Positions 21,599 to 30,967 of a stretch of DNA of 50,038 nt are shown piece after piece. Under the pieces are notes generated by a model. The model was not told where the DNA came from. It saw only the letters and a program-made list of their open reading frames with translations, and did not search any database. Positions within the stretch are counted from its first letter, which is position 1. Each line of letters opens with the position of its first letter. Location: IMG/VR virus record IMGVR_UViG_3300042890_000639, positions 1 through 50,038 of that record; one strand, given 5' to 3'. This DNA comes from a virus. The position numbers were made by a program, and so were the translations under genes.

Positions 21599-21786
21599 TG
21601 GTTGACGGCTCCGTCGGCTCCGTAGATCCGCACACCGACGACGCAGGGATCGTCTCCTCCGTCGAACTGCTCGATCTCCGCCTCGGTAATCGGCAATCCT
21701 TCGTGCGTGTCGCACGTCGGCGCTGAGCAGAAGCCTCTCTCCTGTCCGTACTCAATCCATTCGCGAAGCGTCATCTCGGTTGTCAT
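21595..21786 (-). CDS. Small acidic protein, the only clear minus-strand gene
   Basis: A 63-residue acidic protein (starts MTTEMTLREWIEYG; CSAPTCDTHEGLP at about residues 20-32; ends in a VRIYG strand). Its family-like composition is common in actinophages. Reverse-strand TACACT (complement of 21794-21799) lies seven bases before its ATG, giving a leaderless start. It is oriented against all other genes and converges with the preceding one. Possible regulator; function unknown. Confidence 0.65.
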   Translation of the reverse strand: MTTEMTLREWIEYGQERGFCSAPTCDTHEGLPITEAEIEQFDGGDDPCVVGVRIYGADGAVNH

Positions 21787-21793
21787 ACGCTCG

Positions 21794-21799
21794 AGTGTA
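21794..21799 (-). promoter_or_regulatory. -10 box of the minus-strand gene
   Basis: TACACT on the minus strand with ATG (complement of 21784-21786) eight bases further, the same spacing as the leaderless + strand genes. No -35 consensus is visible. Confidence 0.45.
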
Positions 21800-21811
21800 A
21801 CGTGGAGCAGT

Positions 21812-22591
21812 ATGGCGCTCGGATCTCGAACACTCCTAACGCAGAACTCCGAGCTGCGCCCTGATCACATTTGGAACTATGCCATACCTGCTTGGTACGT
21901 TGTTCTCCCGTCAGGCGAGAGGTTCAAGACCTGTCCGAACGCAGGAGCCTGTGCTCAGGTGTGCTACGCGAGGAACGGAACTTATCGCTTCTCAAATGTC
22001 CTCGAGGCGCACACTCGGAACCTCACGCGCTACCTCGACGATCCGGGTCAATGGCTCTCGGATCTACACGGAGAGCTGGCTCAGGCTAAGTTCCGACCGA
22101 CAGGCGTCGCGCGTCGAGTTACGGGAGATCTCGATCCCTACCTGCGTCAATGGGTCGATCGAGGAGGCTCGGCGATCCGTATCCACGACTCAGGTGACTT
22201 CTTTTCATTGGAGTATCTCCGCGACTGGATCTACACGGCGCGCCTCTTTAGCGACGTGCTGTTCTACGCCTACACGAAAGAGGTCTCCCTCCTCAAGAGT
22301 CTCGACCCCGACGAGATCCCTGCGAACTTCCGCTACCTGTTCTCGACGGGCGGACTCGAGGACAGCCTGATTGACCCCGACAGAGATCGCCACGCCGACG
22401 TGTTCCCGACCGAGGAGGCAATCGCTCTCGCTGGCTATCAGAGTCAAGAAGCCTCGGACCTCCTCGCGATCCTTCTCAATACGACGAGGATCGGGATCCC
22501 TGCTAACAACATTCCGCACTTCAATAAGAAGCTCGACGGGCGTCGCTTCTCCGAGATCGGTCGACAGGATCGAGCGCAGGGACAGGAGTAG
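21812..22591 (+). CDS. Mycobacteriophage TM4 gp88-like protein
   Basis: A 259-residue protein of the gp88-like family: CPNAGACAQVCYARNG at residues 41-56 with cysteines 41, 47 and 51, followed by HTRNLTRYL, and later RIHDSGDFFSLEYLRDW and YAYTKE. Three close cysteines plus an alternating alpha/beta pattern suggest a metal or iron-sulphur site in a barrel-like enzyme, but the spacing is not the classic radical-SAM CxxxCxxC. ATG 21812 is preceded by GGAG; the frame is open further upstream but lies over the minus-strand gene. It sits directly before the hypermodification operon, and an enzymatic role there is possible but unproven. Confidence 0.7.
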   Translation: MALGSRTLLTQNSELRPDHIWNYAIPAWYVVLPSGERFKTCPNAGACAQVCYARNGTYRFSNVLEAHTRNLTRYLDDPGQWLSDLHGELAQAKFRPTGVARRVTGDLDPYLRQWVDRGGSAIRIHDSGDFFSLEYLRDWIYTARLFSDVLFYAYTKEVSLLKSLDPDEIPANFRYLFSTGGLEDSLIDPDRDRHADVFPTEEAIALAGYQSQEASDLLAILLNTTRIGIPANNIPHFNKKLDGRRFSEIGRQDRAQGQE

Positions 22592-22644: not shown

Positions 22645-22905
22645 ATGGCTCCGACACCTCCTCCACTTCCCCGATCCTCGAAAGAACAGAAACTCGAGGC
22701 ACTTGAGCGCGAGATTGTTCGAGGACAGCGCGCCCTTCTCGAACGCAATCGCCTTGTCGTAGAACTCGTCACCTCGGGCTACACGCAGGCGGACATTACG
22801 CGCCGCCTCAACCGCCAGAGGACAGCCCTGAGCGCGGATCCCCTCACGCCCGACGCGATCCACGTCATCATCAAAAGGACTCCAACGAAAGAGGACAATA
22901 AATGA
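22645..22905 (+). CDS. HTH protein heading the hypermodification operon
   Basis: An 86-residue paralogue of the protein at 18690 (same LERxIxRG, ERNxL, GYTQADITRRLNRQR and TPDAI blocks). The GYTQADITRRLNR segment is a probable helix-turn-helix. It overlaps the ParB-like gene by four bases and so belongs to the operon, perhaps as its regulator or as a DNA-targeting partner of the modification enzymes. Confidence 0.7.
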   Translation: MAPTPPPLPRSSKEQKLEALEREIVRGQRALLERNRLVVELVTSGYTQADITRRLNRQRTALSADPLTPDAIHVIIKRTPTKEDNK

Positions 22906-23534
22906 AAACTATCCAGCAAGAGTTCGACCCTTCGATCTCGGTTGCAGACCTGTCCGAGCACCCCGACAACCCTCGCCGAGGCGACTCCAAGGCTGTCAAC
23001 GAGAGCATCGCCGCCAACGGCTTCTACGGGGCGATCCTCGTACAGAAGTCGACGGGTCGCGTTCTAGCTGGTCACACTCGCCTCAAGGCAGCGAAGCAGA
23101 GTGGCGCTACTGAGGTCCCCGGAATCTGGCTCGACGTCGACGACACTCAAGCGAAGCGGATCCTCCTCGCCGATAACCGCACGAGCGACCTCGCGTACTA
23201 CGACGACGACGCCCTTTTCGCTGTCCTCGGGTCGATCCTCGAGGAAGGAGACAGCCTCAAGGGGACAGGCTACGACGACGCGACCTACACGCTCCTTCTG
23301 CGTAATGACGAGCACCCCGGAGACCTTTACGTCGGGAACGTCGAGCAGGGAATGACGCCCGGCGACCGAGGACCGATCTACGACGCGAGCGACATTCGCT
23401 CGATCATTCTCCCGTTCCAAGGCGAAACCTACGACGAGGTCGTACAGAACCTCACGGCTCTCCGATCTCGCTACGACGTCAAGACGAACGCCGACGTAGT
23501 AAGGATTGTCCTCGGTAAGGCAGTCTCCGAGTGA
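22902..23534 (+). CDS. ParB/Srx-fold protein of the base-modification operon
   Basis: A 210-residue protein with a ParB N-terminal-like domain: HPDNPRRGD (about residues 20-28), SIAANGFYGAILVQ and GRVLAGHTRLKAAKQSG (about 52-68), where the GHTR replaces the usual GERR. ParB-like proteins recur next to TET/JBP and other DNA-modifying enzymes in phages, where they are thought to act as ATP/CTP-using or nuclease-like accessory factors. It overlaps both neighbours by four bases. A plasmid-partition role is unlikely because no ParA is present. Confidence 0.85.
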   Translation: MKTIQQEFDPSISVADLSEHPDNPRRGDSKAVNESIAANGFYGAILVQKSTGRVLAGHTRLKAAKQSGATEVPGIWLDVDDTQAKRILLADNRTSDLAYYDDDALFAVLGSILEEGDSLKGTGYDDATYTLLLRNDEHPGDLYVGNVEQGMTPGDRGPIYDASDIRSIILPFQGETYDEVVQNLTALRSRYDVKTNADVVRIVLGKAVSE

Positions 23535-24475
23535 AGCGCGTCGTTCTACAGCGACGTGTACCAACGGTTGTCTGTACGTCTCTCGACGTCGGAGACAGGA
23601 CTCGTACGGTCCGTTCCTGTGGGGAGATGATCCCGTACACGCCGAATAAGCCCTGCCCGAACTGCGGACGTAAGCAGATCCGCGCCACAGCGCCAGCCCC
23701 GAGCCCCGACTCCCTCATCATCAACGAGACCGCCTGTATCGTCGACGCCGATCTCGACGAGGTCGTCGCGGTCCAGATCCTTGGCGAACAGCAACTCGCC
23801 TCCGCGATCGCACAGCAGCTGCGTCACGTTACGCAATGGGAGCGTGTCGGCAACGAAGGACGTCTCTCGGGGATCTCTGTCGAGCACAATACGTTTGGTT
23901 ACGCAGCTCCTGCGCCTCTCCGATCCCGTTGGGCGTGTACGCGCTGTCGCTTCGACCGCAACTACCCCGACGCCGCCGAGCTGATCTACGACTTCGTCTA
24001 CACCGCCGAGCGCCGATTCCGCGAACACGCGCCCGACGCCTACCGTCAATCCGCCGAGGCTGTCCTCGACTCTGTCCCGAATGCGTGGCTCATTCGTGGG
24101 ACACCTTGGACCTCGGGGATCATCAACAATACCGCCGCGCTCCCGTTCCACAAGGACTCAGGGAACATCAGAGGTTCGTGGTCAGCAATGATCGCCTGTC
24201 GACACGGGATCGACGGAGGGCTCCTCTACCTCGCGGACTACGACGTCTACCTCGCTGTCCCTCACGGCTCAATCTCTATTTTCGACGGTCAATCTGTCTT
24301 ACACGGCGTCACGCCTTTCACGGTGACGTCTCACGATGCTTGGCGCTACACGCTCGTTGCTTACGCTAAGAATGGAATGAAGTCTTGCTCTCCGAACCCT
24401 GCCGACGAGGTCGAGCGCGCCGCGATCCGAGCGACCGACGCCGACCGTCGCAAGGCGGAGCGCCTCCGTAAGTGA
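23531..24475 (+). CDS. TET/JBP-family 2-oxoglutarate/Fe(II) DNA dioxygenase
   Basis: A 314-residue dioxygenase starting at GTG. The double-stranded beta helix is clear: H207 and D209 in PFHKDSGN, GGLLYLADY after it, H258 in LHGVTPF as distal iron ligand and R272 in WRYTLVAY as the 2-oxoglutarate anchor. The HxD...GN and HGVTP blocks are those of the TET/JBP family, which hydroxylates the methyl of thymine or 5-methylcytosine in DNA. Two CxxC pairs (C42/C45, C136/C139) may bind zinc. As no C5-cytosine methyltransferase is visible, thymine is the likelier substrate, giving 5-hydroxymethyluracil. It is coupled to the ParB-like and pyrophosphorylase-like genes by four-base overlaps. Confidence 0.85.
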   Translation: MKRVVLQRRVPTVVCTSLDVGDRTRTVRSCGEMIPYTPNKPCPNCGRKQIRATAPAPSPDSLIINETACIVDADLDEVVAVQILGEQQLASAIAQQLRHVTQWERVGNEGRLSGISVEHNTFGYAAPAPLRSRWACTRCRFDRNYPDAAELIYDFVYTAERRFREHAPDAYRQSAEAVLDSVPNAWLIRGTPWTSGIINNTAALPFHKDSGNIRGSWSAMIACRHGIDGGLLYLADYDVYLAVPHGSISIFDGQSVLHGVTPFTVTSHDAWRYTLVAYAKNGMKSCSPNPADEVERAAIRATDADRRKAERLRK

Positions 24476-25554
24476 CCCTGACGACGCTCCCCGAGGACGC
24501 GGATCTACGCCGACCCGAGTATCGGCGCGAGGTGTTCCTTCGGTTCTACGACTATCACACGAAGTACGGGACTCACCCCGGACTCGTCTACCTCATCATT
24601 CCTAGTCTCGCCGAGAAGCTCGGCTGGACAACCGAGGAGACTCTCTGGTTCTCTTTCCTCAATGGCTGTACGCAACACCCCATTACTACGCTTCGCCTGT
24701 GGCGAGAGGCTCCGTCGATCGACGACGCGGACAGGCTCGTCGCTTGGCTCGAGGAGAACGTCGACTCGATCGTCGTCGACACGGACCGCCGATACCATCG
24801 TCGAGCGATCCCGAAAGCGATACACGGCTACAGGACTCTCCTCAACGGATCCTTGCAGGAGGACTTCTGGAGATCGACAGCGAGCGAGGGCTGGAGTGCG
24901 ACGTGGACCGCGGCTCGTGCGATCCCGACCTTCGGCAGACTCTCGGCGTGGTCGTTCTGCGATTACCTCCTCTGCTCGGGCGTCGCTGTCTCTCCTAACG
25001 ACCTGATGCTCGAGGATCGAGCTGGCTCCCGATCGCACCGTAACGGGCTCTCGATCGTCTCGGGGCGCGACGACCTAGATCACCACGCCAGCAACCCGAC
25101 CTTCGACGGGCGCTACACGGGAGAGGACCTCGAATACCTCGCTCAGGTAGGCGACGATCTCCTCCTCGAGGCACAGACACGAGCGACAGGACAGCCGTAC
25201 GCGCGTTTCGTCAACAGACTGACCCTCGAGTCGGCTCTCTGTACCTACAAGTCATTCCACCGACCTAACCGTCGGTATCCAAACGTCTACGCAGACATGA
25301 ACTACGACAGGATTGTGGGCTCGCGAGGAGTCGCGACTGACGCTGACCTCGACTTATTCTGGGAGATCCGCGCGGAGCGTCTCCCCGTAGAGCTGAGACT
25401 CGAGGACAATCTCGGAGACCCGGGTTGCGTCGCGCTCAAACAGAACTGGTACAGAGAGACAGGACGGTTGCCGATGATGTCGGGAGAGTACGCGGACATG
25501 AAGTGCGAGTTCGACGATCTCGTACGCACCAACTCGTTCGGAGTGTTCCGATGA
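24472..25554 (+). CDS. alpha-Glutamyl/putrescinyl-thymine pyrophosphorylase-like amino acid:DNA transferase
   Basis: A 360-residue helical protein that I place in the aGPT-Pplase clade, a helix-hairpin-helix DNA-glycosylase-like family. Supporting blocks are the N-terminal RREVFLRFYDYHTKYG, IPTFGRLSAWSFCDYL at about residues 146-161, and SRSHRNGLSIV at about 183-193. Known members displace the (pyro)phosphate of phosphorylated 5-hydroxymethyluracil in DNA with an amino acid or polyamine. Its position between a TET-type oxygenase and PLP and kinase genes is the arrangement predicted for thymidine hypermodification. The nucleophile used here (glycine, serine, glutamate or a polyamine) cannot be read from sequence. 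Confidence 0.7.
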   Translation: MTLTTLPEDADLRRPEYRREVFLRFYDYHTKYGTHPGLVYLIIPSLAEKLGWTTEETLWFSFLNGCTQHPITTLRLWREAPSIDDADRLVAWLEENVDSIVVDTDRRYHRRAIPKAIHGYRTLLNGSLQEDFWRSTASEGWSATWTAARAIPTFGRLSAWSFCDYLLCSGVAVSPNDLMLEDRAGSRSHRNGLSIVSGRDDLDHHASNPTFDGRYTGEDLEYLAQVGDDLLLEAQTRATGQPYARFVNRLTLESALCTYKSFHRPNRRYPNVYADMNYDRIVGSRGVATDADLDLFWEIRAERLPVELRLEDNLGDPGCVALKQNWYRETGRLPMMSGEYADMKCEFDDLVRTNSFGVFR

Positions 25555-26456
25555 CGATCGGGTGGGACGAGGTCCTGACGGCTACTACGCCTTGGGAGAA
25601 CCGAGGAGGGCGCTGGTATAAGCGCGAGGACTATTGCGCGCCGCTCGGCTACGGCAAGGTCAACGGAGCGAAGTTCCGTCAATGTCTCTTTCTCCTCAAC
25701 CGAGCTGCCGAGGCAGGGTACTTAGGCATCACGACGGGAGCCTCTGTCCTGTCGCCTCAGCTCCCAATGAGCGCGTGTATCGCGGAGTACGTCGGGCTTC
25801 CCCTGCGGATCGTCATCGGAGGAACGACCCTCGACAAGGCGATACGCCACAGCAACGTCAAGATTGCTCTCGAGTTCGGAGCCGAGTTCCGTACGATCAA
25901 GGTCGGCTACAACCCTGCCCTACAGTCGGCTGTCAACAAGGACGTAGAGGAGACAGGGCGCTACCACCTCCGCTACGGCATCTCTCCCGACCCCGACGAC
26001 GACTCCGTCATCGCGTTCCACAAGGTCGGCGCGGCTCAGGCTCAGGGGATCCCCTCGGACCTCCGTCACCTCGTCATTCCCTGCGGATCGGCGAACTCGA
26101 CGATCTCGATCCTTCTCGGGCTGTCGCTCTACCCTCACTCGATCGAGAAGGTCACGCTCATCGGGATCGGACCGAACAGAGAGAGCCTTATCGAGGACAG
26201 GCTCGACCTATTCCGACAGAAGCTCGGAGTGTCCCTTCCGTCCTCGCTCGAGGTCGAGATGCACGATCTCCACTCCTCGGGACTCGTCTCGTACGGCAAG
26301 CGCGTCCCTCAGTCGCTCGACGGGATCACGTTTCACCCGACCTACGAGGGCAAGGTCGTCAATCATTTGCTCTCGCACCCCGACGTAGCCCGAGGCTTCA
26401 CCGAGGGAGACTCGACAACAGGGCTCTGGATCATTGGATCCGAGCCGAAAGGATAA
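25551..26456 (+). CDS. PLP-dependent fold-type II enzyme for modified-base maturation
   Basis: A 301-residue enzyme of the tryptophan-synthase-beta/ACC-deaminase fold. KREDYCAPLGYGKVNGAKFRQ-like N-terminal sequence places the probable Schiff-base lysine at K41; TTGASVLSPQ (61-70) is the substrate-binding loop, and PCGSANST (177-184) the phosphate-binding loop. Phage relatives of this type act on amino acids attached to thymine in DNA, by decarboxylation, elimination or replacement. It overlaps the transferase gene by four bases. A free amino-acid substrate cannot be excluded. Confidence 0.75.
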   Translation: MTIGWDEVLTATTPWENRGGRWYKREDYCAPLGYGKVNGAKFRQCLFLLNRAAEAGYLGITTGASVLSPQLPMSACIAEYVGLPLRIVIGGTTLDKAIRHSNVKIALEFGAEFRTIKVGYNPALQSAVNKDVEETGRYHLRYGISPDPDDDSVIAFHKVGAAQAQGIPSDLRHLVIPCGSANSTISILLGLSLYPHSIEKVTLIGIGPNRESLIEDRLDLFRQKLGVSLPSSLEVEMHDLHSSGLVSYGKRVPQSLDGITFHPTYEGKVVNHLLSHPDVARGFTEGDSTTGLWIIGSEPKG

Positions 26457-26458
26457 CT

Positions 26459-26998
26459 ATGAGAACGATCTACGTCATCGGAGCGCCCGGCTCGGGGAAG
26501 TCGTCTGCCGTTCTACGGGCGACAGAACTCGTACATTGGGGGACACCGACGCAACTCCTCACACCGATCCCACACCTCGACTACGGCGCAGGCTGTATCC
26601 AGCTCGGCAAGGTCCGCGAGTCAGGCTTCTCAGGGACCGACGCTCTCGGCATGGCGATCAACCCGAAAGCGATCGAGTTCATCTCCTCTCGCCCTGCGAA
26701 CGTCGTCCTCGCCGAAGGGGACAGGCTCGCCAACTCGGGCTTCCTTACCGCCGCTGATCAGGCAGGTGTCCTCACGATCGTGTGGATCGACGTCGCTCCC
26801 GAGGTCGCTAGAGAGCGCGCTCGAGCCCGAGCCCTACGCCTCGGCACGAAGGAACAGACAGAGTCGTGGTGGAAGGGGCGCTACACCAAGACGCAACGCC
26901 TCGCAGGAGGCTGGTCGCACGTACGTATCGACGGGACACAGAGCCCCGAGGTCGTCGCACAGGCGCTCGCTGATGTCCTCCCGACACCTCGTTACTGA
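26459..26998 (+). CDS. P-loop kinase, candidate 5-hydroxymethyluracil DNA kinase
   Basis: A 179-residue P-loop NTPase of the nucleoside/nucleotide kinase type: Walker A GAPGSGKS at residues 8-15, a VVLAEGDRL Walker B-like strand at about 81-89, and an RERARARALRLG lid. A small kinase at the end of TET/aGPT/PLP operons is predicted to phosphorylate 5-hydroxymethyluracil in DNA so that the transferase can substitute it. It starts two bases after the PLP gene. A generic nucleotide kinase is the alternative. Confidence 0.78.
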   Translation: MRTIYVIGAPGSGKSSAVLRATELVHWGTPTQLLTPIPHLDYGAGCIQLGKVRESGFSGTDALGMAINPKAIEFISSRPANVVLAEGDRLANSGFLTAADQAGVLTIVWIDVAPEVARERARARALRLGTKEQTESWWKGRYTKTQRLAGGWSHVRIDGTQSPEVVAQALADVLPTPRY

Positions 26999-29669: not shown

Positions 29670-29705
29670 TTGACACGCCGACTCGAGTCGGCTAGAGTTA
29701 TTGAC
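29670..29705 (+). promoter_or_regulatory. Operator-promoter 5 (DUF6884/dpdA pair)
   Basis: TTGACA at 29670-29675, 17-base spacer with CCGACTCGAGTCGG (29678-29691), TAGAGT at 29693-29698, ATG 29706 exactly eight bases on. An A-rich stretch (29648-29656) upstream resembles an UP element. Confidence 0.87.
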
Positions 29706-30176
29706 ATGGACACATACCGCATCGGCAACAAGATCCCAGTCATCGTCATTCCTTGTGGCGGAGCCAAGGCTTCCGAGGCTTGCGCAGCTCGCGACCTTTA
29801 CATCGGCTCAGCCTTTCAGGAGCAACTCGCTGGCGCGATCGCCGAGGTCGGCGAGAACAACGTCTACATTCTTTCCGCACTTCACGGTCTCATCGGCATC
29901 AACGACGTCATCGCACCGTACGACGTCAAGATGGGCGACAAGGGCTCGATCAGCAAGAGTGACAAGGGCTTCCAGCGCCTCGTCCTCGGGATCATCTGGT
30001 ACGGACTCGAGGACGACGCTCTCGACGTTTACGCGATGCTTCCGAACGCATACTTCTCGATCTTTGACAAGGCAATGCGCTACTGCGAAGCTGTCCCTCC
30101 TGCTCAGACCTACGAGGCAACAGCAGGCATCGGCGAGCACAAGGCGATCGCCAAGAAAATGCGCCAAGTGGCGTGA
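29706..30176 (+). CDS. DUF6884-like protein coupled to dpdA
   Basis: A 156-residue protein: VIVIPCGGAK at about residues 12-21, RDLYIGSAFQ, then NVYILSALHGLI and VIAPYDVKMG, the DUF6884-like pattern also seen in YaaA-like and archaeosine-type domains. It overlaps the DpdA gene by four bases and shares its operator-promoter. I recall DUF6884-type domains occurring with DpdA, which suggests a joint role in 7-deazaguanine handling, but this is memory and context, not proof. The start at ATG 29706 is set by the leaderless promoter; codons upstream are promoter. Confidence 0.65.
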   Translation: MDTYRIGNKIPVIVIPCGGAKASEACAARDLYIGSAFQEQLAGAIAEVGENNVYILSALHGLIGINDVIAPYDVKMGDKGSISKSDKGFQRLVLGIIWYGLEDDALDVYAMLPNAYFSIFDKAMRYCEAVPPAQTYEATAGIGEHKAIAKKMRQVA

Positions 30177-30967
30177 GGTTCTACCTCGGGACAGATCAAC
30201 CCGTATGGCTGGAGAGGGCTGACCGCCCTCTCTTTCTGTCTTGGAACAGCGTCGCTCGATCTCGCCACACGGCTCGAGTGGATTGGGCTCTCGACTCGGG
30301 AGGCTTCACGCAGATCGTTCGACACGGGAGTTACGAGACGGATCCCGAGACCTACGCTCGAGGCGTCGCTCGACTCCTGTCCGACGTCGGGCGTCTCCAG
30401 TTCGCTGTTGTACAGGATTACCCCTGCGCGCCCCTCGCGCTCGAGATGACGAGCCTCACGGTCCTCGACCACCAACGGCTGACGATCGAGTCGACTCTCG
30501 ATCTCGCGTCGATCGCTCCCGAGTTGCCTTGGGCTCCTGTCCTCACGGGGATCACCCCGAGCGACTTCCTCCGCCACGCAGACGCGTACGAGAAGGCTGG
30601 CGTGGACCTCGGATCGTTCGAGACGATCTCGATCGGCGCGCTCGTCGGGAGATCGTTCCCTGACCAGCTCGCTGTTCTGACGGCTGTCGACACTCTCGGA
30701 CTTCCGTATCACGGGCTCGGGATCAAGGGTCGGACACTCCGAGCCACTTGGCAGCTGCTCCAGAGTGCGGACTCAATGGCTTGGTCGATGACAGCGCGAC
30801 GAGCTGACGGTCCTCTCTGTCGTCCCGACGCAACTCACCAGAGGTGTAAAGGCTGTCTGATCTACGCACAGCGTTGGGCACAGAAGCTCGAGGACTCGCT
30901 CCAGCAAGACACTTTTCAGCCCTCTCTGTTCCCTACGTTTCAAGGGCAAAAAAATAATCCGTCATAA
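30173..30967 (+). CDS. dpdA: DpdA-like DNA 7-deazaguanine transglycosylase
   Basis: A 264-residue TGT-family enzyme, shorter than tRNA TGT (about 380). It keeps LDSGGF with D41, QDYPC at 81-85, TGITPSDF at 125-132, IGALVGR at 154-160, HGLGIKG at 180-186, the probable nucleophile D200 in SADSMAWS and a zinc site C216, H222, C225, C228. These are the features of phage DpdA proteins, which exchange guanine in DNA for a 7-deazaguanine such as preQ0. No queC, queD, queE or folE-like gene is visible in the window, so the base must come from the host or from salvage. It starts at GTG within the previous stop; its last codons lie in a repeated promoter cassette. Confidence 0.85.
   Translation: MRFYLGTDQPVWLERADRPLFLSWNSVARSRHTARVDWALDSGGFTQIVRHGSYETDPETYARGVARLLSDVGRLQFAVVQDYPCAPLALEMTSLTVLDHQRLTIESTLDLASIAPELPWAPVLTGITPSDFLRHADAYEKAGVDLGSFETISIGALVGRSFPDQLAVLTAVDTLGLPYHGLGIKGRTLRATWQLLQSADSMAWSMTARRADGPLCRPDATHQRCKGCLIYAQRWAQKLEDSLQQDTFQPSLFPTFQGQKNNPS

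Follow-up and report, generated by a model that had tools for sequence, protein, structure and literature searches.

A compact block of six genes lies on the plus strand at positions 22645-26998 of a viral record of 50,038 bases (IMG/VR record IMGVR_UViG_3300042890_000639, from an uncultivated virus), the whole of which is called the window below. The block encodes a dioxygenase of the TET/JBP type together with an amino acid:DNA transferase (ADDT), a pyridoxal phosphate (PLP)-dependent enzyme and a P-loop kinase. We consider it quite likely that this cluster modifies the phage's own DNA once it has been replicated, turning thymine into a hypermodified base like that of Salmonella phage ViI. 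The genes are as follows.

22645..22905, + strand: small protein of 86 amino acids (aa), possibly a helix-turn-helix (HTH) DNA-binding protein; open reading frame (ORF), kept in relatives
22902..23534, + strand: ParB-like protein, 210 aa; PF02195 (ParB_N) 5.3e-6, phrog_723 3e-34
23531..24475, + strand: TET/JBP-type Fe(II)/2-oxoglutarate dioxygenase, predicted thymine hydroxylase, 314 aa; PF12851 7.7e-9
24472..25554, + strand: ADDT (aGPT-PPlase2), 360 aa; PF18724 4.6e-11, phrog_3271 4e-68
25551..26456, + strand: PLP-dependent fold-type II enzyme with K41, predicted processor of the attached amino acid, 301 aa; phrog_3650 2.5e-66
26459..26998, + strand: P-loop kinase with the motif GAPGSGKS, predicted 5-hydroxymethyl-dU DNA kinase, 179 aa; PF18751 (Ploopntkinase3) 2e-24

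The gene junctions consist of four 4-base overlaps followed by a 2-base gap before the ATG at 26459, in agreement with the order and spacing given in the initial annotation of this DNA. The ParB, TET/JBP, ADDT and Ploopntkinase3 matches are all above the Pfam cut-offs, TET and ParB only just, and the Pfam and PHROG profiles together with fold searches confirmed the families which that annotation had named for the last five genes. Its assignment of the first gene as an HTH protein is weak, as the small protein has no significant match in Pfam or PHROG profile scans, though it is conserved 5' of ParB in the relatives L002, L005, L006 and L008. A search for RNA families gave no matches.

The window dioxygenase scores 35.4 bits against the Tet_JBP profile (PF12851), for which the Pfam cut-off is 34.9. 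Residues H207, D209, H258 and R272, named in the initial annotation and corresponding to the iron triad and the 2-oxoglutarate-binding arginine, are invariant across 20 phage TETs, and a profile of these 20 sequences matches NgTET1 at 2e-4. When the TET model was compared with the PDB by Foldseek, the first 26 matches were all TET2, CcTET, NgTET1 or CMD1. Single-sequence PDB searches with the TET, ADDT and PLP proteins returned no relatives, and fold and profile searches were needed. By its residues, profile and modelled fold, the window protein belongs to the TET/JBP dioxygenases. Phage TETs carry the RefSeq label 'queuine tRNA-ribosyltransferase' (phrog_6059), probably an annotation error passed along.

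If TET is the source of hydroxymethyl-dU, phages with these tailoring enzymes are expected to carry either TET or an enzyme of the thymidylate-synthase family (PF00303), not both. Whole records were searched for PF00303 in a first set and in a second, environmental set of 35 TET+ADDT records and 15 TET-less ADDT/PLP records. PF00303 is absent from the window and from all TET records of the first set (0/20); it is present in 9/9 named TET-less ADDT/PLP isolates, none of which carries TET (0/9). The environmental records gave 0/35 with TET and ADDT versus 12/15 without TET (Fisher p 4e-9, a value computed on related sequences that are not independent, so that kinship inflates the counts). The TET match is weak in at least one of these 35, L163. 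The 3/15 TET-less records without PF00303 may be fragments; in the transferase tree, L145 groups inside a clade of TET-bearing records, and its gene sits at a contig end. Of 34 environmental records taken to be TET-less, 33 gave no match to a TET profile; the remaining one, L046, turned out to be a fusion, with TET and ADDT in a single open frame of 666 codons (L046:3789-5786). On a quick tree of 110 transferases, TET and the thymidylate-synthase-type enzyme must have changed places four times or more. These repeated switches and the fusion are free of the kinship weakness that affects the counts. Within the stretch examined, TET and thymidylate synthase occur together in none of the 190 locus groups of our survey. 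All the above supports the proposal, already made in the initial annotation, that TET would replace the deoxyuridine monophosphate (dUMP) route to hydroxymethyluracil.

The two tailoring enzymes next to TET have their counterparts in ViI. The window ADDT is 28% identical to ViI orf00247 (E 3e-26) and the PLP enzyme 31% identical to ViI orf00226 (E 1e-47), both over nearly the full length. The proteins starting at 24472 and 25551 were checked for membership of unrelated metabolic families, and both are homologous to ViI proteins instead. The PLP protein has no Pfam match and was assigned through phrog_3650. Its model has a pLDDT (predicted local distance difference test score) of 96, the best PDB match is a D-cysteine desulfhydrase/1-aminocyclopropane-1-carboxylate (ACC) deaminase of fold type II (E 2e-13), and K41 is the same in all 69 relatives compared, so that the fold type and the lysine named from the sequence are borne out. 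Membership of the D-cysteine desulfhydrase/ACC deaminase family itself was considered and rejected, as the protein scores 20.8 bits with TIGR01275 against a cut-off of 289. Judged by sequence and model, it is a divergent phage subfamily within fold type II. ADDT and the PLP enzyme form a conserved pair across TET and non-TET phages and are sometimes fused, as in the single PLP-ADDT open frames L227:7875-10145 and L234:7107-10394. The kinase accompanies ParB-TET in many loci. In phage records this kinase goes under the label 'terminase small subunit' (phrog_800) or 'adenylate kinase', which are probably errors propagated by RefSeq.

The resemblance of the PLP enzyme to metabolic desulfhydrases, and the queuine label on TET relatives (probably a transferred error), would fit a cluster that serves amino-acid metabolism or acts on RNA and does not modify DNA. 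We regard this as hardly probable at all, since ADDT and the PLP enzyme are homologous to proteins of the ViI pathway, the dioxygenase has a TET fold and the cluster is conserved over many phage groups.

The family memberships, the gene linkage and the replacement pattern described above suggest a probable pathway, in which every chemical step is inferred. TET would act first, placing a hydroxyl on the T methyl group in DNA and so giving 5-hydroxymethyl-dU, a step with strong circumstantial support. The P-loop kinase, by family relation to the 5hmdU DNA kinases of the M6/ViI type, would then phosphorylate the hydroxyl group. By homology, ADDT would next exchange the (pyro)phosphate for an amino acid, serine, the one used in ViI, being the most likely choice. 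The PLP enzyme, as a homolog of orf00226, would finally decarboxylate the adduct to produce a base like 5-(2-aminoethoxy)methyl-dU, the exact product being the least certain part. According to Lee et al. (2018, 2021/22), ViI reportedly adds serine, which its PLP enzyme then decarboxylates. We infer from the genomics both that T is the substrate and that the enzymes act after replication. The function of the modification would probably be protection from host nucleases.

Within the same explanation, T could be hydroxylated in DNA while the final product is not ViI-like, either because another amino acid is transferred or because the PLP enzyme eliminates, racemises or deaminates. The nearest solved relatives of the PLP fold are desulfhydrases and deaminases, not decarboxylases; identity to the ViI proteins is only 28-31%; and in Hangman, among other relatives, ADDT and kinase are present but no PLP gene adjoins them. 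The conservation of ADDT and PLP as a pair, fused at times, in phages with and without TET speaks for a ViI-like product, and we hold the divergent product to be possible, if somewhat doubtful.

Several observations weigh against thymine hypermodification by a ViI-like route. As the window has no end repeats and is not a circular contig, a gene that seems to be missing may be located beyond its ends. The kinase is not of the ViI kinase type, and its phage relatives are all actinophages; close homologs precede the terminase in B1 mycobacteriophages with no TET among the neighbouring genes, as seen in Mycobacterium phage Colbert (L035, 1-567), where no TET gene adjoins. The HxD+3 aspartate of NgTET1 aligns with N212 in the window TET, and our attempt to read a preference for T or 5-methylcytosine (5mC) from the active site ended there, as N212 does not tell the two apart. 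Finally, L005, which holds the next-nearest TET relative (77%), carries a C5-cytosine methyltransferase, encoded in a frame of 866 aa that lies upstream of the TET cluster there (G002:C1:34068-36455). No homolog of the N6/N4 methyltransferase of the window was seen in the L005 locus.

The methyltransferase of L005 bears on the proposal that TET oxidises 5mC made by a host or phage methyltransferase, and that the downstream enzymes hypermodify 5-hydroxymethylcytosine rather than T. Phage TETs active in C5-cytosine hypermodification have been published (Burke 2021 PNAS, as cited in PMC12730594), and most of the solved TET structures that the window model matches are of enzymes acting on 5mC. With a 5mC substrate, a C5-methyltransferase (PF00145) would be expected to be common beside TET. 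We sought one as support for this substrate and found none in the window or in nine isolated TET phages, and the gene is rare alongside ADDT, occurring in 2/35 TET+ADDT records (absent from 33/35). It is commoner, at 8/29, in records with the same TET family but no ADDT (Fisher p 0.03), and because of this difference the phage TET family may include both T-acting and 5mC-acting kinds. The window shares its tailoring enzymes with phages that hypermodify T, and TET swaps with the thymidylate-synthase-type enzyme, a source of hydroxymethyl-dU. We therefore judge a 5mC substrate for the window cluster to be unlikely.

The oxygenase could also act before replication on free thymidine nucleotides, with hydroxymethyl-dUTP then incorporated into DNA, which would fit the downstream enzymes equally well. 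No phage DNA polymerase or nucleotide-pool gene was seen among the window ORFs scanned, and therefore there is no sign of a hydroxymethyl-dUTP pool. The TET-ADDT fusion and the linkage to ParB suggest DNA as the substrate, and, to our knowledge, TET/JBP enzymes act on DNA, which we also count against the pre-replication scheme. It appears very improbable.

Of the 119 TET locus groups whose upstream sequence was long enough, 84 had a ParB gene detected no more than 1.5 kb before TET. We speculate that ParB is a DNA-binding or recruiting partner of TET. A broader proposal would be that the ADDT-paired phage TETs do hydroxylate thymine in DNA under the guidance of ParB and form a widespread post-replicative and possibly sequence-selective alternative to dUMP hydroxymethylases, each having replaced the other several times under the same tailoring enzymes. 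To this proposal in full we give about an even chance.

Among the 190 locus groups, 55 have TET, ADDT, PLP enzyme and kinase and 20 have TET, ADDT and kinase, and the related TET-transferase locus groups number about 75, mostly from IMG/VR. The TET, ADDT, PLP and kinase genes stay clustered while their order varies between loci. Other tailoring genes can also follow ParB-TET. The kinase stands alone in Nigel and L013, glycosyltransferase-like proteins are found in L008, L014 and L011, and an FkbM-like methyltransferase in L012, the assignments for these L-numbered loci having been made by eye from the sequence. The Arthrobacter phages Altadena (L018) and Bolt007 (L024) have a glycosyltransferase and a glucosaminyl deacetylase at this place, which suggests a hydroxymethyl base bearing an aminosugar.

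Profile scans indicate that the window is a genome of the tailed-phage type, with tail genes at 1-13 kb, an ERF recombinase, an HNH protein and a DNA methyltransferase. The large terminase (27935), portal (33799) and major head protein (44867) follow the cluster. The portal is closest to those of Pseudanabaena phage Pam4 and of Streptomyces phages and other actinophages, and most of the 848 matching records are actinophages. As the relatives of the window TET and kinase in the isolate collection are likewise all actinophages, an actinobacterial host is likely.

Directly 5' of the cluster (21707-22591) lies a gene for a GP88-family protein (PF17338) with the cysteine motif C-x6-C-x3-CYA, and homologs occur near TET in 12 other locus groups. 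A collagen-like repeat protein (899-1930; PF01391 4.6e-33) is probably a tail fibre. Downstream, a DUF6884 gene (29670-30176) overlaps a DpdA gene (30173-30967; PF23859 1.7e-51), an arrangement shared only with L002/L004 among the loci. A deazaguanine pathway through these two genes was considered and set aside, as a counterpart of the window DpdA is found in only one further locus group and the singleton-DpdA mycobacteriophage Orion has no 7-deazaguanine. Many B1 mycobacteriophages carry a singleton DpdA. A second base modification in the window phage through DpdA is possible but unsupported.

The T-hypermodifying phages of established chemistry are believed to load their hydroxymethyl-dU ahead of replication. 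If the proposed pathway is true, a TET front end could mark chosen sites, with no need for a takeover of the nucleotide pool or for a special polymerase. Such a system would provide a TET of a bacterial virus acting on T, a simple four-enzyme in vitro route to amine-bearing DNA, and a functional reading for genes that many actinophages carry under the labels 'queuine tRNA-ribosyltransferase', 'adenylate kinase' or 'terminase small subunit'.

Hypermodification based on TET/JBP enzymes was reportedly predicted in phages by Iyer et al. in 2013, and one GenBank entry names the TET enzyme 'thymidine hydroxylase'. The closest described locus is that of Rhodococcus phage Tonitrus, in print since 2025 as a putative thymidine hypermodification (THM) system, with a ParB-like protein, a tet-like protein, aGPT-Pplase2 and a 5-hydroxymethyluracil (5hmU) DNA kinase in one locus (PMC11955845). 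The window has the same gene set, namely ParB, TET, aGPT-PPlase2/ADDT and a P-loop kinase, in one block. In Tonitrus the transferase is more divergent and no PLP homolog was detected beside it, whereas the window adds a PLP enzyme of the ViI type. The initial annotation had presented the system as a variant not known to be biochemically characterised; its novelty was over-stated, as Tonitrus was already annotated in this way (PMC11955845), but our limited literature search indeed found no biochemical demonstration of TET-based thymine hypermodification, nor a measurement of hypermodified T in the virion DNA of Tonitrus. The Coopervirus Mycobacterium phages Hangman and Prince have ParB-TET-ADDT-kinase (gp1-gp4) followed by the terminase, with an ADDT 43% identical to that of the window, but the block has no PLP gene. 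Glutamicibacter phage Montesquieu has an ADDT-PLP-kinase block (ADDT 40% identical) with a thymidylate synthase/pyrimidine hydroxymethylase in place of TET.

The DNA of ViI contains 5-(2-aminoethoxy)methyl-dU (5-NeOmdU) at about 40% of T (PMC11721090). In ViI-type phages, the nucleotide pool is believed to be the source from which hydroxymethyl-dU reaches the DNA, with phosphorylation and substitution coming afterwards (PMC6449724), and a relative of these phages has a thymidylate synthase, aGPT-Pplase2 and P-loop kinases described as ViI-like (PMC10458263). ViI (Vi01) shares homologous ADDT (orf00247) and PLP (orf00226) proteins with the window, and a DNA kinase, a predicted one in the window, acts in between. 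It differs in having a thymidylate-synthase family enzyme, no TET, another kinase and scattered genes, whereas in the window the genes are gathered in one block and hydroxymethyl-dU has no candidate source other than TET. The window system thus probably works like ViI downstream but, without PF00303, is no member of the ViI pathway. The phage TET/C5-methyltransferase/glycosyltransferase systems, as far as Burke et al. 2021 is cited, also use a TET-made hydroxymethyl handle for tailoring, but on 5mC, and the window has no C5-methyltransferase. In the trypanosome JBP system (base J), compared here by description, T is likewise hydroxylated in DNA by the TET/JBP family, and glucosylation follows where the window would use amino-acid transfer. 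Compared with the demonstrated systems, the front end is replaced; compared with the predicted ones, the window is another member. The present analysis adds the replacement pattern, the TET-ADDT fusion and an explicit connection with the ViI pair, parts of which may have been reported before.

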